64,000 nt of DNA from Desulfovibrio sp. (GTDB lineage: Bacteria; Desulfobacterota; Desulfovibrionia; Desulfovibrionales; Desulfovibrionaceae): NCBI GenBank assembly GCA_016208105.1, contig JACQYS010000005.1, positions 1-64,000 of the forward strand, written 5' to 3'. Within the stretch, counting starts at the first letter, position 1; each line of letters begins with the position of its first letter. Below the pieces are notes generated by a model, which was given only the letters and a program-made list of their open reading frames with translations, was not told the origin of the DNA and did no database searches. The translations under genes were made by a program, and so were the position numbers. Below are positions 1,672-38,356 of this stretch, piece after piece.

Positions 1672-3309
1672 TCAACTCAACTCCGCCTGCTTCTGAAGCA
1701 GGTCCCGCCAAACCATCTCGAAGTTCTTCGCTATCATCATATCCAGTGCGGTATTGTCGTACTTGGCTTCCAGCTTGATCTTGTTGCCCAGAATGTGGGC
1801 CACCTGGGCCGGTGAGGACGCCTGGCGCAGGCTGGACCGCTGCACGTGGTCGATGGCCAGGCGTCCGGCGTACAGGCAGGGCTTTCCCGCCAGGAAACAG
1901 CGGATGTCGCGGTCGAGATCGTCGAACTGGGTGGGAGTGAAACGCACATCGAATGTCCCGACAGAATCCAGAAGAGTCAGGTCCAGCAGATGGCAGCATC
2001 CGGAAACCGACAGACAGGGGCGTTCATAGGCGAAAAGCCCGGCGTCCAGGGCCCCGGTGCAATTGTTGAAAACACGCAGCCGTTCGCCGGGTTCGTCTCC
2101 GGCTTCTCCGGGAAGGCGGTGGAGCAGGTGGTAATCCGCTGATTGCAGGCCATGCGGATGTTCATGATCGCGGATGGTGCACCCGACGACCCCGCATTCC
2201 GGATGACGCGCCGCGGCCTTAAGGAGCGTGGCCAGCCAATGCCTAGGCAGGATCACGTCGTCGTCCAGGAAGGCGGCGTAGCGGCAGGCGCGGACCTCTG
2301 GCAACGAGAGCAGCCAGTTTCTGGCCGCGGGCGCGCCCACGTTCACCGGCAGGGTGACCACGGTCAGCCGATCCTTCCCGAAACGGTCCATGGCGGCCTG
2401 AAGCGCTTGAGGGGTTTCGTCCGTGGAGCCGTTGTCCAGGACGAATACCGGGTTGTCCCCGATATCGGAGGCAAAAACGCTTTCCAGGGTCTGCGAGATC
2501 AGTTCCGCCTTGTTCCAGGAGTAGGCCAGAATGGCTGCTCTCTCTCGCGGAAGTTCGTCGGAGGAGGGAATCCGGACCGCGTCGTGGAGCAGCAGGGTCA
2601 GGTTCACGTTCCAGGGCATGGCCGTGTGCAGAGAACGCCAGCAGGCTGCGGCGTGCGCGAAGTCGCCCGACAGGGCGGCCAGGCGGCCAGCCATATACCC
2701 CGCCCAGGGGGCGAACGGGGTGGAATCGAACTGAGTGTCGAAATCGAGGCCGTGGTGGTAGTCGAGCTCGGCCAGAAGCCGGGTCGATAGAAGATCATCT
2801 CCAGCGCCGATGCGGATGATATTTGCGGCCTTGTCCCTGTCAGATAAACGGACTATCTCATCCCAGGCTTCGCCGATCCAGGCCGTGCCGTTCTGTCCTT
2901 GCACCGCCTGTTCCAGGAATTGCGGAAGCTCATCGCTGTTTCCCGAGGTTTTTATGTCATCCCAGAGTTCATGGGGCGGCAGTGGGCGCAGGCGCTTTTT
3001 GAGTGCTTGTAGGTAGGAGCGGTTCTTTGGGGAAAGAAATTTCTGCTCGCCGTCCAGGGTGAGAAGCAGGGCGAGCGCAGGGGCGTATAGCGGGCGCTGC
3101 TGCCAGGACCAGGCAAGAAGGCCTGCGGCTGCTGACATAAGGACTTGATTGCCGGGGGCTCCGCGCACTATCCCTTCGGCCAGCCCCCACTGCTGCCAGG
3201 GGCTTTCCGTGGAGAGTCCCCATGTTGGCAGCGGCCCGGCCAGCCGGGCAAGATCCTCTGGATCGAAATCGGGAAAGAATCCCATGTTGTCTCGGGAGGG
3301 TTCGCTCAT
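1672..3309 (-). CDS. Family 2 glycosyltransferase with long N-terminal region
   Basis: A 545-aa protein. The C-terminal half, from about residue 260, is a GT-A fold. It contains AAILAYSWNKAELISQTLES, then the nucleotide-binding VFVLDNGSTDETP, then an acidic AAFLDDDVILPRHWL (the DxD-type metal/sugar-nucleotide site). It should transfer a sugar from a nucleotide donor to a surface polysaccharide or protein. The first 250 residues are helical, repeat-like and alanine/leucine rich, and not recognised. The start was put at 3309 (MSEPSRDNM), where an AGAGG precedes it. That codon overlaps the start of the divergent yrdC gene in a shared CATG. A further ATG at 3285 is possible. Acceptor and donor are unknown. 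Confidence 0.85.
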   Translation of the reverse strand: MSEPSRDNMGFFPDFDPEDLARLAGPLPTWGLSTESPWQQWGLAEGIVRGAPGNQVLMSAAAGLLAWSWQQRPLYAPALALLLTLDGEQKFLSPKNRSYLQALKKRLRPLPPHELWDDIKTSGNSDELPQFLEQAVQGQNGTAWIGEAWDEIVRLSDRDKAANIIRIGAGDDLLSTRLLAELDYHHGLDFDTQFDSTPFAPWAGYMAGRLAALSGDFAHAAACWRSLHTAMPWNVNLTLLLHDAVRIPSSDELPRERAAILAYSWNKAELISQTLESVFASDIGDNPVFVLDNGSTDETPQALQAAMDRFGKDRLTVVTLPVNVGAPAARNWLLSLPEVRACRYAAFLDDDVILPRHWLATLLKAAARHPECGVVGCTIRDHEHPHGLQSADYHLLHRLPGEAGDEPGERLRVFNNCTGALDAGLFAYERPCLSVSGCCHLLDLTLLDSVGTFDVRFTPTQFDDLDRDIRCFLAGKPCLYAGRLAIDHVQRSSLRQASSPAQVAHILGNKIKLEAKYDNTALDMMIAKNFEMVWRDLLQKQAELS

Positions 3310-3973
3310 GGCCTCTGAAATTGTTTCGGGTTCCCCTGATCCACAACTCGATCGGGCAGCAAAAGCTGTCGCAGGGGGCGGGTGCATCGTCTACCCCACG
3401 GAAACCTTCTACGCTTTGGGAGCCCGCGTGGGAAGCGCCCAGGCCCTGGAGAGGGTGAATGCCATCAAGGGCAGGCCGAGGTCAAAGCCCCTGCCGGTCA
3501 TCATCGGCGCCATGGAACAGCTGGGACAGGTTCTTTCCGAAGACGCGCCGGATTGGCCCGGATACGGGTTGGCCAGGGAACTCATGGAGCAGTTTTGGCC
3601 AGGCTCACTCTCCATCATCGTGCCTGCCCGAGCTGGCTTGGCCTCCCAGCTTCTGGACGGGCGAGGCTTCGTATCCGTTCGCCTCACCCCGCACCCGCAG
3701 GCTCGCGAGCTGTGCCTGCTCGCAGGCTCCCCCCTGGCAGCCACCAGCGCCAACGTCAGCGGCGATCCTGCCGTGAGCGACATTGGGAAGCTGAGCCCGG
3801 CGGTCTGCCTGGGAGCGGAGTATGTTCTTGCAGGTAATCCTCAGCCCGCCGGGGGGCTTCCCTCAACGGTGCTGCGGCCCACGGACGGCAGGTCAGCAGT
3901 CCTGTACCGGCTTGGGGCTGTGGGTGAAGAGGCGCTTATGAGCCTGGGCATCACCCTGACCAGCGACGGGTAA
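3308..3973 (+). CDS. YrdC/Sua5-type threonylcarbamoyl-AMP synthase
   Basis: A 221-aa, single-domain YrdC protein. It has the YPTETFYALGARV segment near residue 30 and the nucleotide-binding KGRPRSKPLPVII basic cluster near 52. It also has FWPGSLSIIVPA and the SVRLTPHP...PLAATSANVSGDPA signature. TsaC/Sua5 enzymes make L-threonylcarbamoyladenylate from threonine, bicarbonate and ATP for the t6A37 modification of ANN-reading tRNAs. The Sua5 C-terminal domain is absent, so it is TsaC-like in size, or a YciO relative. ATG 3308 has GGGAGG at 3294-3299 and overlaps the divergent glycosyltransferase start. Its stop codon lies inside the first upstream box of small-RNA unit 1, and decayed copies of its 3' end recur downstream. 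Confidence 0.88.
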   Translation: MASEIVSGSPDPQLDRAAKAVAGGGCIVYPTETFYALGARVGSAQALERVNAIKGRPRSKPLPVIIGAMEQLGQVLSEDAPDWPGYGLARELMEQFWPGSLSIIVPARAGLASQLLDGRGFVSVRLTPHPQARELCLLAGSPLAATSANVSGDPAVSDIGKLSPAVCLGAEYVLAGNPQPAGGLPSTVLRPTDGRSAVLYRLGAVGEEALMSLGITLTSDG

Positions 3974-4038
3974 AAGTTTTTTTACGCCACGTGGCGGGCT
4001 GGGTGGAAAAGCTCAAGCGTTGTTCAAGAAACTTTACG
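3969..4038 (+). promoter_or_regulatory. Upstream boxes (UAS1, UAS2) of small-RNA unit 1
   Basis: UAS1 (3969-3988) carries GTAAAAGTTTTTTTAC, an inverted repeat with GTAAAA/TTTTAC arms, and overlaps the yrdC stop codon. UAS2 (4022-4038) is GTTCAAGAAACTTTACG, with an AAG-AAA-CTT core. Both recur at the same distances before the sigma-54 promoters of units 2 and 3, which is what enhancer sites for a bacterial enhancer-binding protein should look like. Confidence 0.65.
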
Positions 4039-4125
4039 CCCGCAGGCTGACGCCCTGGATGGTCTTGTTGTGTAATGCTCATTTATAACAGTATGTTAAC
4101 TTGATTTTCGAGGCGTGTTTGGCCC

Positions 4126-4141
4126 TGGCACGCTCGTTGCT
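4126..4141 (+). promoter_or_regulatory. Sigma-54 (-24/-12) promoter of small-RNA unit 1
   Basis: TGGCACGCTCGTTGCT matches the consensus TGGCACG-N4-TTGCW at every position, with GG and GC ten bases apart. The predicted transcription start is about 4152. Confidence 0.85.
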
Positions 4142-4151
4142 TTATCCCATG

Positions 4152-4217
4152 CATCCTTCCTCCTTTTGTTAAAACCGGCTTTCAAGGAAACCAGGGCCTT
4201 GAAAGCCGGTTTTATTT
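4152..4217 (+). ncRNA. Predicted sigma-54-dependent small RNA, copy 1
   Basis: The predicted RNA is about 65 nt long. A short unpaired 5' part contains CCTTCCTCCTTTTG. It is followed by a perfect 17-bp stem (4171-4187 with 4197-4213) closing the loop AAACCAGGG, and then a T-rich tract. The loop and the inner CTTTCAAGG/CCTTGAAAG stem are conserved in three copies. The outer stem differs by paired changes (GGC/GCC here, GCC/GGC in copy 2, GTC/GAC in copy 3). The CCTCCTTTT segment could pair with Shine-Dalgarno sequences. No start codon with a ribosome-binding site lies within it. The hairpin also serves as terminator. Confidence 0.7.
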
Positions 4218-4250
4218 CGTTCGATCACCAGCCAGAATTTCTGTGTGATA
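4169..4250 (-). pseudogene. Decayed 3' fragment of the GT9 gene (unit 1)
   Basis: On the minus strand, the frame through the hairpin reads VIERNKTGFQGP. It resembles the C-terminal AIKQNEKVFQGPGIP of the intact GT9 gene at 5469-6440, which also ends inside its hairpin. Similarity is short and fades beyond about 4250, so the assignment rests mainly on the clearer copy in unit 2. Confidence 0.4.
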
Positions 4251-4480
4251 CCATGCTGCGTCCTCTTACCCCAGGGCATGGCAAGTATGCCGTATCCTCC
4301 CAGATACAGGTGCCTGAAGCGATGGCAAGCAGCCAGGTTCGTCCCGGTGGATATTCTCCGCTTGCCCTTTTGGGGTTTTCGATCGCTCCTTGGCTGAGAT
4401 ACCGGCTTAGTCGCACCCCATCTTTCGGAACGTGGTTCTTGCCTCGATGGTGCGCTGAGCAAGGACATGCTTTGCTTGAC

Positions 4481-4561
4481 CTTCGATGGAGGGCAGCGGA
4501 CCATAATGCCGCAATACTTGGCTGGGTCGAGGGAGAGCCTGAGGGTATACTTGAAATATGA
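4481..4561 (+). pseudogene. Decayed 3' fragment of yrdC (before unit 2)
   Basis: The plus frame ending at the TGA of 4559-4561 reads NAAILGWVEGEPEGILEI. It aligns loosely with the C-terminus of the intact YrdC protein (SAVLYRLGAVGEEALMSLGI). It sits just upstream of UAS1 of unit 2, exactly where the yrdC 3' end sits before unit 1. The open frame running into it from 4115 crosses the small-RNA hairpin and is not a real gene. Confidence 0.4.
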
Positions 4562-4582
4562 GCCTCCTTAGGTGGCTCATAG

Positions 4583-4653
4583 GAGTAAAAGTTTTTTTAC
4601 CTCAAACAGGGGCCCGGGTAGGGAGAGGGGGGGACGGTTCAAGATTCTTTACG
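4583..4653 (+). promoter_or_regulatory. Upstream boxes (UAS1, UAS2) of small-RNA unit 2
   Basis: UAS1 (4583-4602) again holds GTAAAAGTTTTTTTAC. UAS2 (4637-4653) is GTTCAAGATTCTTTACG. They lie 159 and 105 bp before the promoter, against 157 and 104 in unit 1, although the intervening sequence has diverged. Confidence 0.65.
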
Positions 4654-4741
4654 AATTCAAGGCGGAGTTCAATAAGAAGCCTCTTGAAAGAGGTCAATAA
4701 TTATAATGTTTTAACATGCACTTTGAGTGTTGTGCCGAGTG

Positions 4742-4757
4742 TGGCACGCTCATTGCT
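4742..4757 (+). promoter_or_regulatory. Sigma-54 (-24/-12) promoter of small-RNA unit 2
   Basis: TGGCACGCTCATTGCT is a full match to the -24/-12 consensus. The predicted start is about 4768. Confidence 0.85.
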
Positions 4758-4767
4758 AGATTAGATT

Positions 4768-4846
4768 CATCATTTCCTCCTTTTGCAACAATTTTACTAA
4801 AACCGCCTTTCAAGGAAACCAGGGCCTTGAAAGGCGGTTTTGCTTT
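4768..4846 (+). ncRNA. Predicted sigma-54-dependent small RNA, copy 2
   Basis: About 78 nt. The 5' tail reads CATCATTTCCTCCTTTTG and is followed by an AT-rich linker. Then comes a perfect 17-bp stem (4799-4815 with 4825-4841) closing the same AAACCAGGG loop. The outer stem is CCGCC/GGCGG instead of CCGGC/GCCGG, so base-pairing is preserved by compensatory changes. The tract after the stem is TTTTGCTTT. Confidence 0.7.
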
Positions 4847-4928
4847 GGCCGGTCGTCAACGAACGTTTATTTCTGACCACCTCGGGCGGCAGGGCGCCCG
4901 AGCAGCGTGGATTCTCGCAAATCAAGTC
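4797..4928 (-). pseudogene. Decayed 3' fragment of the GT9 gene (unit 2)
   Basis: The minus frame reads DLICENPRCSGALPPEVV and then SKTAFQGPGF. This matches the intact GT9 C-terminus, DLSCGNARCLGELPPALV followed by EKVFQGPGIP, with both cysteines kept. The rest of the gene is absent. This is the clearest sign that the repeated unit includes the end of the convergent glycosyltransferase gene. Confidence 0.6.
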
Positions 4929-5160
4929 CAAAATGCGCTGATGCCGGTAAGCTATGAGGCTTCTGGAATACTTCGAAGTCCGGATGGCCAACAGGATTCC
5001 TGTGGACGCTCGTCTGTGGGGTATCGCTTCAGATGGACCATGTTCCTAGCGGACGTCGATGCTGGAAACCGTTTCTGGGCGCCTGTTCGCTCATCTCTTT
5101 GCAGCGCTTCAGCGGTAATACTCATCAGTGTGTGAAACCAAGAGGAATATGAGCTTAAGC

Positions 5161-5246
5161 CAGAAGAGTGTGGTCCTCTATCAAATATGACAGCCGAGAA
5201 GAGGAGAGCTTGGAGGTCTGGGCATCGCCCTGCGAGCGATGGGTAT
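5161..5246 (+). pseudogene. Decayed 3' fragment of yrdC (before unit 3)
   Basis: The frame reads QKSVVLYQI, a stop, then QPRRGELGGLGIALRAMGI. The intact YrdC C-terminus reads GRSAVLYRLGAVGEEALMSL and continues GITL. DNA similarity is obvious over about 50 bp up to UAS1 (for example CTGGGCATCGCCCTG against CTGGGCATCACCCTG). An in-frame stop and a small deletion make it non-functional. Confidence 0.6.
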
Positions 5247-5312
5247 AAGTTCTTATACCGGGAATGGGGGCCTGGGTGGCGAAAGCGAATTGCGGTACAA
5301 GATTCTTTACGG
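5242..5312 (+). promoter_or_regulatory. Upstream boxes (UAS1, UAS2) of small-RNA unit 3
   Basis: UAS1 (5242-5259) is GGTATAAGTTCTTATACC, a perfect 8-bp inverted repeat around TT, and the best copy of the site. UAS2 (5295-5310) is GTACAAGATTCTTTAC. They lie 158 and 105 bp before the promoter. The two centres are about 53 bp apart, close to five helical turns. Confidence 0.68.
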
Positions 5313-5399
5313 TTTCAAAGGAGATTTCAAAACGAGCCTGAAGAGTAAAAACAAGTTATTACTGCCTGTTAGTATGCTTTTACGTGGTGTTTTGAGTTT

Positions 5400-5415
5400 T
5401 GGCACGCCCATTGCT
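5400..5415 (+). promoter_or_regulatory. Sigma-54 (-24/-12) promoter of small-RNA unit 3
   Basis: TGGCACGCCCATTGCT is a full match to the -24/-12 consensus. The predicted start is about 5426. Confidence 0.85.
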
Positions 5416-5425
5416 AGATACATTT

Positions 5426-5503
5426 CATCATTTCCTCCTTTTGTTAAAATTTTAAATGAACAAGTCTTTCAAGGAATACCAGGGCCTTGAAAGACTTTTT
5501 CAT
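5426..5503 (+). ncRNA. Predicted sigma-54-dependent small RNA, copy 3
   Basis: About 77 nt. The 5' tail reads CATCATTTCCTCCTTTTG, with an AT-rich linker and a 13-bp stem (5462-5474 with 5485-5497) closing AATACCAGGG. The stem pair GTC/GAC replaces GGC/GCC of copy 1. On the minus strand the same hairpin encodes the last codons and stop of the convergent GT9 gene, so it probably terminates transcription in both directions. Confidence 0.7.
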
Positions 5504-6440
5504 TTTGTTTGATCGCCATCGCAAGTTCCTCCATGACCAGCGCTGGAGGTAATTCACCCAAGCAGCGCGCATTCCCGCAACTCAGGTCCGCGCAGGTGGC
5601 GGTGCAGGGTGAGCAGGGAAGAGCAAGGCTCACCTCGCGCATGCCCACCGGGCTCCATTGGGCGAAGCTGGTGGGCCCGAAAAGGGACACTCCTGGCACT
5701 CCGAGCATGCCTGCAAGGTGCATGGGGCCGGTATCGCCTCCCACCACGGCGCGGGCGGTCAGAATCAGCTCTTCCAGTTCCTCCAGGCTGCCAGGGGCGG
5801 CCACGCTCATTCCCTGAAGATCCATCCCGCGTTCGAGTTCCGCCGGACCAACCACGCAAACAGGTTCGAAGCCCGCCTGGCGCAGCATCCCGGCCAGTTG
5901 AAAATATTGAACCAGGGGCCACTGCTTGGTCGGATGTCCGGCTCCCGGAAACAAGAGCACCGTGTTCCCCGGTTTTAAGCCGGATGCGAAATATCGCCTG
6001 AAGTCCTTGAGCCAGCCCTCCGGAGTCGGTATGCCATAAGAGGACAGATTCGAAGCGTAACACTCCCGGACGTGGGCTGCTGGCCGACAGTCGGAACCGC
6101 CGCCAATCGCCTTCACGAACCAGCACCTGCTGTCCGGAGCGATGTTCGGAGCCTTGTCGATCACGAACCAGAACGCGAGCCAGTCCTCGAGTTCGTCGGT
6201 CCAGAGCGCCGCACCGTGCAAGCGGTCCAGAGCGCGTCTTATTTCGGGTGGGCAGGGTGAGAATCCGAGAGGCTCGAGCCAGCGCAACCTGTCGCCGCAT
6301 CCGGCCCAGCAGAGACGTGCCGTGGGCAGAGCCTTGCGCATGGCCCAGGCCGATGGCCACACGTTCAGGAAATCGCCGATGGCTCCGTTATGAATGAGAA
6401 TCACCTTGTCAGACACAGGTGTTGTAGGTATAGATTTCAT
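5469..6440 (-). CDS. Family 9 glycosyltransferase (heptosyltransferase-like)
   Basis: A 323-aa protein with the GT9/ADP-heptose:LPS transferase layout. The N-terminal Rossmann half begins VILIHNGAIGDFLNVWPSAW. The C-terminal half has VLLFPGAGHPTKQWPL, the donor-site AVVGGDTGPMHLAGMLGVP, and VSLFGPTSFAQWSP. A cysteine-rich tail (CSPCTATCADLSCGNARC) precedes the end, as in many delta-proteobacterial members. It probably adds a sugar to the LPS core or a flagellar/surface glycan; donor and acceptor are unknown. ATG 6440 was chosen because the conserved domain begins about ten residues later; the upstream extension overlaps the Nudix side and is unconserved in character. The stop codon lies within the hairpin of small-RNA copy 3. 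Confidence 0.86.
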   Translation of the reverse strand: MKSIPTTPVSDKVILIHNGAIGDFLNVWPSAWAMRKALPTARLCWAGCGDRLRWLEPLGFSPCPPEIRRALDRLHGAALWTDELEDWLAFWFVIDKAPNIAPDSRCWFVKAIGGGSDCRPAAHVRECYASNLSSYGIPTPEGWLKDFRRYFASGLKPGNTVLLFPGAGHPTKQWPLVQYFQLAGMLRQAGFEPVCVVGPAELERGMDLQGMSVAAPGSLEELEELILTARAVVGGDTGPMHLAGMLGVPGVSLFGPTSFAQWSPVGMREVSLALPCSPCTATCADLSCGNARCLGELPPALVMEELAMAIKQNEKVFQGPGIP

Positions 6441-31770: not shown

Positions 31771-33177
31771 TTACAGCGTCATCTCATGCTTTTTCAGCAA
31801 CGCGTACAGATGCGACCTCGACAATCCCGACGTCTCCAGCATCACCAGCAGGTCGCCCCCGGTATCGGCCAAAAGCGCATCAAGATATTCACGCTCCTTG
31901 GCCTCCTTGAAGGCCTTGAGCGTAGGCAGCGCGCCCGGAAGCAGCGCCTGGACTGGTGGGTCCGCCAAGGGAGCCGGTTTGTCGTCCCTGCGGCCGCGCT
32001 CGATGTTGGCCTTCATCACTTCAAGGCGCACTTCCGGGGGCAGGTGCTTGGCATAGAGGGTGGGCTCCATCCCGGCGGCGGCCAGGGCCCTCTCCAGCAC
32101 GCCGAAGAGCTGCCGGACGTTGCCAGGCCAGGAATAGGCCATGAGCATGTCCGAGAAGTCCGTGCCCACGCCCTTGGTGGGCAGGCCGAAACGCTGGCAC
32201 AGGGCGTCCAGCTGGCTTAGAGTGAGAAGCTTGATGTCCTCGCGCCGCTCTCGCAGAGGAGGCAAATCGATGACAAAGGTTTTCAGCCGAAAGAGCAGGT
32301 CCTGACGGAATTCGCCCCGGGCGGCCATGTCCTCCAGATCGCGGTTGGTGGCGGCGATCAGTCGGAAGTCGCTCTGCACCTCGATGCTCGCCCCCACTGG
32401 GCGGAAGCGTTTCTCCTGGAGAACGCGCAAAAAAGCCTTCTGAATGCCCATGGGCATCTCGCCCACTTCGTCCAGGAACAGGGTGCCTCCGTCGGCCAGC
32501 TTCACCAGGCCCGGGCGATCCTGGTCCGCGCCGGTGAAGGAGCCCTTGCGGTGCCCGAAAAGGGTGCTCTCCAGCAGGGTTTCCGTGAGCGAGGCGCAGT
32601 CCACGGCCACGAATTCGCCCAAAGACCTGGGTGAATTCAGGTGGATGGTGCGGGCCATGAGCTCCTTGCCGGTTCCGGTCTCGCCGGAGATGAGCACCGG
32701 TCCGGTAAGGCGTGAAGCCTGGGCCACCAGGTCCAGGCAGGCCTCCATCTTGGGGCTGCTTCCGATGATGGATTCGCGCCTCAAGGCCACGGTGGAAACT
32801 TCCTGGGCTTTTTCCTTGTGGTACTTGAGCGCCCTGTTGAGCGAGAGCATGGTCTGCTTGATGGGTGCGGGCTTGACCAGGTAGTCCCAGGCGCCTCCGG
32901 AGATGGCCATTTCAGCGCCGTCCGGATCGCCCAGGCCGGTCAGGATGATCACCTCGGGAGGATTGTCGCCGCGCCGAATGTCCGCAAGGGCGTCGAGCCC
33001 GTTGCCGTCGGGCAGGCGAATGTCCAAAAGCACCACATCCACTTCTTCCGAGCGGACCAGGCCGAGGCCTTCCGCCAGGGTGCCGGCTCCAAGAAAATTG
33101 AAGCGCATGCGCCGGGAAAGGCTTTGAAAGGTGTCGCGGATTTCCTGGTCGTCATCGATTACGAGAATTGTCGCCAT
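31771..33177 (-). CDS. Sigma-54-dependent response regulator (NtrC family)
   Basis: 468 aa: receiver (Asp in VVLLDIRLPDG), AAA+ domain with GETGTGKE (Walker A), GTLFLDEVGEM (Walker B) and FRQDLLFRL (arginine-finger region), and a C-terminal Fis-type helix-turn-helix (SGLSRSHLYALLKKH). The sigma-54-contact loop reads GSFTGA instead of GAFTGA. It should activate sigma-54 promoters when phosphorylated by the kinase encoded 2 bp upstream. It probably controls the lactate operon that starts about 400 bp downstream, as known sigma-54 regulators do for lactate utilisation in Desulfovibrio. Confidence 0.93.
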   Translation of the reverse strand: MATILVIDDDQEIRDTFQSLSRRMRFNFLGAGTLAEGLGLVRSEEVDVVLLDIRLPDGNGLDALADIRRGDNPPEVIILTGLGDPDGAEMAISGGAWDYLVKPAPIKQTMLSLNRALKYHKEKAQEVSTVALRRESIIGSSPKMEACLDLVAQASRLTGPVLISGETGTGKELMARTIHLNSPRSLGEFVAVDCASLTETLLESTLFGHRKGSFTGADQDRPGLVKLADGGTLFLDEVGEMPMGIQKAFLRVLQEKRFRPVGASIEVQSDFRLIAATNRDLEDMAARGEFRQDLLFRLKTFVIDLPPLRERREDIKLLTLSQLDALCQRFGLPTKGVGTDFSDMLMAYSWPGNVRQLFGVLERALAAAGMEPTLYAKHLPPEVRLEVMKANIERGRRDDKPAPLADPPVQALLPGALPTLKAFKEAKEREYLDALLADTGGDLLVMLETSGLSRSHLYALLKKHEMTL

Positions 33178-37813: not shown

Positions 37814-37889
37814 GGGCGGGTAGCTCAGTTGGAAGAGCACCGGCCTTACAAGCCGGGGGTCACAGGTTCGAGCCCTGTTCCGCCTACCA
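37814..37889 (+). tRNA. tRNA-Val (anticodon TAC)
   Basis: A 76-nt cloverleaf. The acceptor GGGCGGG pairs with TCCGCCT (two G-U pairs). The D-arm is TAGCTCAGTTGG and the anticodon stem CCGGC/GCCGG encloses CTTACAA. The T-arm is AGGTTCGAGCCCT-like, and CCA is encoded. Confidence 0.95.
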
Positions 37890-37896
37890 CGTATGC

Positions 37897-37973
<77 letters not shown>

Positions 37974-37983
37974 CTGCTCGCCC

Positions 37984-38013
37984 GAGCCCGGATACTCTCC
38001 GGGCTCTTTTTTT
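37984..38013 (+). terminator. Terminator of the tRNA-Val/Asp operon
   Basis: GAGCCCGGA-TACTC-TCCGGGCTC with a run of seven T. Confidence 0.9.
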
Positions 38014-38194
38014 ATTCTCCACATACCATGTGTGTTGTCCGGAATGGTCTGACTCCTTCAGCCTGGTCTCCCTGTTCGCATTCAAGATGGACCGAGTTGT
38101 GCTCAATGGCACCGCAGGGCGCATACTTCAGGATGTGCCCGACAATGACTCGTCACGAGAATTCCGTCTTTTCCGCAAAACGGCACGAGCCCCC

Positions 38195-38221
38195 TTGACC
38201 TTTCCCGTGGGCGCGTATAAA
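38195..38221 (+). promoter_or_regulatory. Promoter of the second tRNA-Asp
   Basis: TTGACC (38195-38200) and TATAAA (38216-38221), 15 bp apart and followed by a GC-rich discriminator. The 270 bp before it (38014-38194) hold nothing else that I can support. Confidence 0.55.
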
Positions 38222-38279
38222 CGACGCTTCCCCGTGACGGTGTTCCGGTCTTTTGGGCCAGGCAGCGTCTCGGGCATGC

Positions 38280-38356
<77 letters not shown>

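Follow-up and report, generated by a model that had tools for sequence, protein, structure and literature searches.

Tandem sigma-54-type small RNA genes between yrdC and a glycosyltransferase gene in Desulfovibrionales, and their proposed link to porins

The window analyzed here, a stretch of 64,000 nucleotides from a Fundidesulfovibrio genome (contig JACQYS010000005.1), carries three tandem units in the DNA between yrdC (3308-3973) and a convergent gene for a GT9 glycosyltransferase (5469-6440), each predicted to encode a small RNA (sRNA) under its own sigma-54 promoter. Read from 5' to 3', each unit has a site A and, 52 bp further on, a site B; its sigma-54 promoter (TGGCACGCYCRTTGCT) comes next and precedes a predicted RNA of approximately 66-80 nt. 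In this RNA a linker joins the conserved unpaired 5' end, which contains UUCCUCCUUUUG, to a terminator-like hairpin with the loop ACCAGGG. A preliminary description of this DNA had proposed three tandem sigma-54-dependent sRNA genes of an undescribed family; this remained the best reading, and no sRNA family of Rfam 15 matched. At the level of sequence there is very little room for doubt about the family, the architecture of its sigma-54 promoters and its synteny across the order, and porins are probably a main target of the sRNA.

Promoters, upstream sites and predicted RNAs

The elements of the array and its neighbours were located as follows (positions in the window; upstream sites are given without strand):

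3308-3973, plus strand: yrdC/sua5 gene, upstream neighbour (PF01300, 5.4e-40)
3970-3985: unit 1 upstream site A, GTAAAAGTTTTTTTAC, overlapping the yrdC stop
4022-4037: unit 1 upstream site B, GTTCAAGAAACTTTAC
4126-4141, plus strand: unit 1 sigma-54 promoter (-24/-12)
4152-4217, plus strand: sRNA 1 (predicted; ends approximate; model R3 match 4152-4220)
4152-4168, plus strand: predicted unpaired 5' seed of sRNA 1, CAUCCUUCCUCCUUUUG (unpaired in the fold)
4170-4214, plus strand: terminator-like hairpin of sRNA 1 (loop ACCAGGG at 4190-4196)
4585-4600: unit 2 upstream site A
4637-4652: unit 2 upstream site B, GTTCAAGATTCTTTAC
4742-4757, plus strand: unit 2 sigma-54 promoter
4768-4846, plus strand: sRNA 2 (predicted; seed 4768-4785, hairpin 4798-4841, loop ACCAGGG 4818-4824)
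5243-5258: unit 3 upstream site A, GTATAAGTTCTTATAC
5295-5310: unit 3 upstream site B, GTACAAGATTCTTTAC
5400-5415, plus strand: unit 3 sigma-54 promoter
5426-5505, plus strand: sRNA 3 (predicted; seed 5426-5443, hairpin 5454-5505, loop ACCAGGG 5478-5484)
5469-6440, minus strand: GT9 glycosyltransferase gene, convergent neighbour (PF01075, 1.1e-20)

The full sigma-54 promoters previously placed at 4126, 4742 and 5400 were recovered, with exact TGGCAC-N5-TTGCW at these positions and nowhere else in the window. With up to one mismatch, TGGCACGCYCRTTGCT had three matches in the 4.18-Mb genome, all in the array, versus one for the reversed control pattern. A looser promoter pattern (1 mismatch allowed) gave 5 matches in the window vs. 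2.75 expected, a number reached by 13/100 shuffles; the promoter evidence therefore consists of three exact, equally arranged copies and not of the number of matches. The distances between copies, 616 and 658 bp, agreed with the values of about 615 and 660 bp given before.

Three features had been overlooked in the preliminary description: the paired upstream palindromes, the peak of conservation in the unpaired 5' UUCCUCCUUUUG and the stem-loop core, and the overlap of the unit 3 hairpin with the 3' end of the convergent GT9 gene, of which the last 12 codons (stop included) were covered. In every window unit the two palindromic sites were 52 bp apart and ended approximately 115 bp before the RNA start, the sequence of site A being GTAAAAGTTTTTTTAC or GTATAAGTTCTTATAC. 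Among 63 units (49 distant, 14 from the genus), 60 had two palindromes of consensus GTTCAAAATTTTGAAC above 8 bits, and the spacing was 51-54 bp, five helical turns, in 54 of these 60; the order-wide matrix used for this count was fitted to the same 63 units. Two such sites were found in 15 of 1500 random stretches from the same distant loci, none of them at a spacing of 51-54 bp. The two marks of a sigma-54-dependent sRNA, a -24/-12 element and paired upstream activator-type sites, were both present. A lone extra site (GTATAAGTTCTTATAC) was also seen between the two sRNA units of genome G094 (C4:201475-201490, intergenic in L021), perhaps the remnant of a third unit.

A hairpin followed each predicted start, as had been claimed, beginning 18, 30 and 28 nt downstream in units 1 to 3. 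The minimum free energies of the units were -28.5, -28.1 and -23.5 kcal/mol, and for each of them 0/200 shuffles folded as well. The array hairpins were absent from the list of a simple terminator scan of the window, because the scan considered loops of 3-8 nt, vs. 9-10 nt here, and the T-runs are interrupted. Conservation peaked in the unpaired 5' UUCCUCCUUUUG and in the core of the stem-loop: the seed core UUCCUCCUUU was invariant in the 14 genus units, as were the stem CUUUCAAG and the loop ACCAGG in the 13 distinct genus sequences. The DNA between units was indeed not conserved; in two sister pairs, with gaps scored as mismatches, the RNA was 90-100% identical vs. 40% and 52% for the spacer, and identity amounted to 75-88% in the promoter, 66-91% in the block of upstream sites and 47-57% in the linker. 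On a MAFFT alignment the hairpin stem was 94.5% paired, with a double change in 11 cells (shuffles, 3.1) and lower values for slid partners. Weighing against the structural reading, two of five covariation measures were at or near shuffle level, namely pairs with a double change (4 vs. 2.3, reached by 54/500 shuffles) and further pair types (242/500 shuffles); nine of the eleven inner stem pairs never varied in the genus alignment.

The absence of plausible coding was borne out by the 14 genus units, which had no shared reading frame: their only ATG, in RNA 3 of the window, opened a frame of 18 codons extending beyond the predicted end, and TTG-started frames varied from unit to unit. Gathering-threshold matches of Rfam 15 in the window were three tRNAs only, and nothing lay over the sRNA units (E ≤ 0.5) in five loci compared with Rfam, four of which carried family members. 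Titration of CsrA through a GGA in the loop region was considered and is disfavoured, as the copies of G094 and G118 have no GGA there.

Distribution and synteny

Distribution was assessed with model R3, which covers the RNA part only and was built from one genus, its stem being verified on the alignment. Fourteen units were recovered in 7/7 Fundidesulfovibrio genomes, all between the same genes; every one of them had GG-N10-GC (by reading the sequences) and both upstream sites, at 16-27 bits. A covariance-model search of Desulfovibrionales and Rfam, the check named in the preliminary description, yielded relatives across the order and no Rfam sRNA family. At E ≤ 0.01, where approximately three chance matches are expected across the order and the single-genus model and strict filters pull the other way, 82 of 348 genomes matched; they belong to six families and represent 30 of the 59 genera, so that the earlier placing in Desulfovibrionaceae has to be widened to the order. 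Four matches were found in 395 genomes of the phylum: three came from the family of the window, and the fourth, from outside it, was a weak candidate (G450, E 0.0015). Named genomes gave a full-length match in 23 of 80 stretches examined, out of at least 117 matched; among these 23 there was no taxon name from outside Desulfovibrionales, some titles reading only 'Proteobacteria', 'Pseudomonadota' or 'Deltaproteobacteria'. Fundidesulfovibrio agrisoli SG106 has two copies.

Absence from the orthologous locus of relatives, the genomic condition named in the preliminary description as refuting its reading, was not observed: the locus was kept in 7/7 genus genomes. Of 40 distant loci sampled from the order's matches, 38 had at least one of YrdC, GT9, NUDIX and GlgA beside the RNA. 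YrdC together with at least one of the other three was found in 34/40. Wherever found, YrdC was upstream on the same strand (35/40), GT9 downstream and convergent (19/40), and NUDIX downstream on the same strand (31/40), with GlgA downstream in 27/40. Family members away from yrdC and GT9 were observed in L081 and L086, near genes that resembled dapF, HU and ParA/MinD by eye.

For the promoter, 49 of the 53 distant model matches were used, including weak ones (E up to 0.054), the four dropped being opposite-strand readings of other hairpins. GG-N10-GC was present 20-32 nt before the RNA start in 45 of these 49 vs. 11% of random positions. Among the four without it in this preset interval, two (both in L080) had it at -36, L094_6453 had only an unconvincing match at -39, and L074_5500 had none. 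The distant matches departed from the genus in the loop and inner stem, and their 5' tract was largely retained.

Operator-type sites and predicted seed pairing at porin genes

The porins considered here are relatives of an outer-membrane protein of genome G106, present in 4-9 copies per genus genome (50 matches). Those tested against Pfam matched no family; NCBIfam named four of five proteins submitted, one porin each from G000, G016, G186 and G150, as NF033939 (DESULF_POR1, outer membrane homotrimeric porin), and the fifth, an outer-membrane-like protein from G204 (L102), was excluded from the porin counts. With a first matrix, trained on the sRNA sites of the genus only, sites of at least 12 bits were found upstream of 11 of the 50 porins. 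Among 107 control genes two reached this score, and one of these was a leaked sRNA site; eight of the 11 porin sites scored 23.5-25.5 bits and lay 164-171 bp from the start. The order-wide matrix, fitted to sRNA sites and to no porin sites, was applied to 75 of the 77 sites of a loose operator pattern in six genus genomes (G118 left out). Among these 75, all 17 sites of at least 20 bits were at sRNA (9) or porin (8) promoters, and those of at least 18 bits comprised 12 at sRNAs, 8 at porins, 3 inside GT9 genes, 1 in the G094 array and 0 elsewhere. An exact pattern gave 20 distinct sites in 16 genomes of the order vs. 7 for its reversed control, distributed over sRNAs (6), porins (4), one other outer-membrane-like protein and nine others. 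Two results tell against an operator shared by porins at large: 39 of the 50 porins had no site of at least 12 bits, and the loose pattern was without excess (77 sites vs. 82 for the reversed control), the special part being the high-scoring sites only.

Within the genus, another palindrome of lower score (4.8-13.6 bits) lay at a distance of 17 bp from seven of the eight strong porin sites. Strong sites also preceded porins in G016 (2/2, tandem in 1), G186 (3/3, tandem in 2) and G150 (1/2, tandem), and four of these six site-bearing porins had two good sites 17 bp apart. Judged by eye, porin sites lay approximately 27 bp before a TTGCAC-N16-17-TAGAA-like promoter; a position about 60-95 bp before the presumed start would fit activation no less than repression, and therefore no sign of regulation is claimed. 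That one regulator acts on both the sRNA and the porin genes seems, from these motifs, somewhat likelier than its opposite. The palindrome inside GT9 genes (GTTGAAAATATTGAAC and similar sequences, 19-20 bits) was seen in three of six genus genomes (window 5897-5912; G075:C30:3224; G106:C7:121456), and could represent either an additional operator or merely a motif conserved in the protein.

Among the seed-complement sites outside the sRNA genes was GACAAAAGGAGTAAGGA, ahead of the start of the G106 outer-membrane protein gene, with 16 of 17 positions complementary to the sRNA of the same genome (by eye). Duplexes between the seed and the ribosome binding site (RBS) had a median of -17.1 kcal/mol for the 50 porins vs. 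-10.9 for 113 control open reading frames (p=5.6e-10); for 12 core porins, a group formed only once the leaders had been seen, the value was -20.3 vs. -13.1 in 35 controls with a strong Shine-Dalgarno (SD) sequence (p=1.5e-6), and for the other 31 strong-SD porins -15.3 vs. the same -13.1 (p=0.017), all p-values being optimistic because the genes are related and not independent. Both the late grouping and this dependence lower the weight of the comparison. The seed reached beyond the SD core (UUUUG, UUUUGC), and core porin leaders matched that part. In the window genome, the three RNAs against two porins gave -15.1 to -22.3, with the start codon included in some duplexes; 13/1000 mononucleotide shuffles of seed 1 equalled the seed against one porin.

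Nine genomes were compared all-vs-all, with porins picked by operator or leader features. The seed was complementary to the porin RBS in several species, a result to be read with the anti-SD content of the seed in mind. In G016 the seed is UUCCUUUUUUUGC and the porin sites are GAAAGAAGGAAG and GCAAATAAAGGAAG, without GGAGG; the porins gave -18.7 with their own seed vs. -12.6 to -15.8 with the seeds of the eight other genomes, which supports a matched change, seed and porin RBS apparently diverging together. Furthermore, the loop ACCAGGG faced CCCTGGT in the leaders of six genus porins, 64-71 nt before the start. The leader variant GCCTGGT was found 63-64 nt before the start of one porin each in G009 and G050 only, the sole genus genomes with an ACCAGGC loop, on their second sRNA copy. 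Either leader 7-mer occurred in 8/50 porins vs. 4/108 controls; the matching seems to go back to a single evolutionary event and is no more than a hint.

Several results weigh against a dedicated porin pairing. The 13-mer complementary to the seed, CAAAAGGAGGAAG (up to one mismatch), had 44 sites in the seven genus genomes, of which the sRNA genes themselves account for 14; the reversed control had 39, so there was no clear genome-wide excess. Any anti-SD RNA would pair well with porins, because their RBSs are strong, and the RBS of a leuC-like gene also matched the seed in at least three genomes. Own seeds were not always the best for their own porins (G075, G094, G150), the G150 porin giving -15.2 with its own and up to -20.9 with other genomes' seeds. 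Outside the genus, no loop-leader pairing was seen.

Proposed scheme, alternatives and related systems

In the scheme proposed here, the three units would be tandem copies of one trans-acting sRNA. As a first step, which is strongly supported by sequence, an enhancer-binding protein (EBP), activator X, would bind two GTTCAAAATTTTGAAC palindromes 52 bp apart and fire each sigma-54 promoter. From conservation we infer the second, an RNA with a short unpaired 5' seed directly followed by the terminator hairpin. The third, supported by complementarity, would be pairing of the seed with the RBS, and sometimes also the start codon, of DESULF_POR1 porin mRNA, by which translation would be blocked; in Fundidesulfovibrio a further contact may form between the loop ACCAGGG and CCCUGGU of the porin 5' leader. 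In the fourth, supported by the motif, X would also bind one strong site, often with a second 17 bp off, upstream of the sigma-70-like porin promoter, so that the same regulator would act on porins at both levels, either repressing twice or activating while the RNA caps output. The first three steps together with some form of the fourth form a reasonably likely account. Its extension to an order-wide porin switch is tentative and, taken whole, rather doubtful: a single EBP, paired sites at multicopy sRNAs, tight versions at sigma-70-like porin promoters, and an RNA that would hold the mRNA by loop-leader and seed-RBS contacts and co-evolve with the leader.

Activator X was not found among the genes examined. 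No activator gene adjoins the window array, upstream of which the contig begins at 4 kb, and the activator of L097 (G166), which stands beside a matching site, had no close orthologue in 17 other genomes; both points count against the scheme. As a general activator the L097 protein was rejected, its best other matches being approximately 38-47% identical. Its site, a perfect one at about 1501 (G166:C15:286812), is followed by a near sigma-54 promoter (TGGCGCGCTCCTTGAT), lies downstream of a response-regulator gene and may be a local extra target. An activator-type gene was found about 3-5 kb from the RNA in four of the 40 distant loci, with no match in the other 36; those about 3 kb away in L066 and L090 were mutual orthologues (55%), and those at about 4-5 kb in L080 and L083 were different proteins. 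The nearest found in the window was a sigma-54-activator-type response-regulator gene on the minus strand at 31786-33114, 26 kb from the array, and no evidence for control of the array by it was obtained.

The same pairing data could be read as those of a real sigma-54 sRNA acting as a general anti-SD silencer, porins being merely its most visible targets. The seed does contain CCUCC, leuC-like and rpsF-like genes (named by eye) match it too, three of 113 controls reach -20 kcal/mol, and the non-core porins are only modestly above strong-SD controls; however, the core porins outdo those controls, their leaders match the seed past the SD core, the seed and porin RBS changed together in G016, and the shared operator picks out porins, all of which makes this reading unlikely. 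Much less probable is a sponge, in which the hairpin would titrate either a protein or a second RNA, the role of the 5' pyrimidine tract being chaperone binding or stability. The invariance of stem and loop within the genus agrees with it, yet beyond the genus it is the loop and inner stem that vary and the 5' tract that is kept, and because of this the tract is taken as the functional core of the family. Least probable of all, and only slightly conceivable, is that the element is not a trans-acting RNA and instead forms a sigma-54-driven attenuated leader of the downstream NUDIX-glgA genes; these do follow in most distant loci (31 and 27 of 40), but the convergent GT9 gene intervenes in the window and in 19/40 loci, each of the three tandem copies ends in a stable hairpin, and the seed and porin operator would be left without explanation.

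Among known systems, the scheme of a trans-acting, porin-directed sRNA is close in outline to the Qrr sRNAs of Vibrio, which depend on LuxO and sigma-54. As in Qrr, several short copies each have, by their sequence, a sigma-54 promoter and activator sites, and action on mRNA RBSs is proposed; unlike Qrr, the family has no Rfam sRNA match, another upstream motif, a shorter single-hairpin RNA, copies in tandem at one locus and porins as proposed targets. LuxO-type upstream sites are TTGCA-N3-TGCAA, and the family consensus GTTCAAAATTTTGAAC did not match them. The porin-repressing sRNAs of Gammaproteobacteria (MicA, RybB, MicF, OmrA/B, VrrA) are driven by sigma-E, sigma-70 or OmpR; a short seed at porin RBSs and envelope-linked control, as proposed here, would be shared with them, whereas the sigma-54-type promoter and the lack of a matching Rfam sRNA model set the present family apart. 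The anti-SD sRNAs of Alphaproteobacteria, NfeR1 and the CCUCCUCCC 'cuckoo' RNAs, likewise have a C/U-rich unpaired motif complementary to the SD sequence, but differ in structure and lineage, and we know of no sigma-54 promoter among them.

The preliminary description had known of nothing comparable in Desulfovibrionaceae. This holds for the family itself, which is apparently new, but sigma-54-dependent noncoding RNAs (ncRNAs) of D. vulgaris have been published: the accessible text of PMC4641369 lists 36 sigma-54 regulons including 4 ncRNAs, tied to DVU0653, DVU0679, DVU1419 and DVU2359, and that of PMC3333781 gives Dv_sRNA2 as a target of the regulator DVU0679. On these descriptions, the EBP-controlled ncRNAs of D. 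vulgaris Hildenborough resemble the present family in order, sigma-54 promoters and activator sites, and differ in that three of the four adjoin an activator gene, while the family sits between yrdC and GT9/NUDIX. Predicted ncRNAs of O. alaskensis G20, including known types such as STnc490, appear in the available part of PMC11124144, and nothing linking an sRNA of sulfate reducers to porins was recognised in the open-access literature searched. The sRNA family and the porin link thus appear to be new as far as found, the D. vulgaris ncRNAs being compared by description only. If true, this would give a sigma-54 sRNA of the group its first proposed function, as far as the open-access literature searched shows, and a conserved RNA would be tied to porins twofold, by an operator motif and by base pairing. 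DVU0799, the major abundant porin of D. vulgaris, possibly belongs to the porin family of the proposed targets; it is described as a route of sulfate uptake in low sulfate (PMC5686591, PMC8319347), and the accessible portions of these papers mention no RNA regulation. The operator motif offers a handle for finding the activator and its signal.

Three minor features were recorded in addition. A leuC-like gene (by eye) in L261, L277 and L278, from three genus genomes, has a seed-complementary RBS, AAAAAGGAGGAAG, located within the 3' end of the upstream frame. A cobalamin riboswitch lies on the minus strand of L062 (3467-3661), approximately 2.4 kb upstream of the sRNA unit, and three tRNA genes are found at 37814-38353 of the window.

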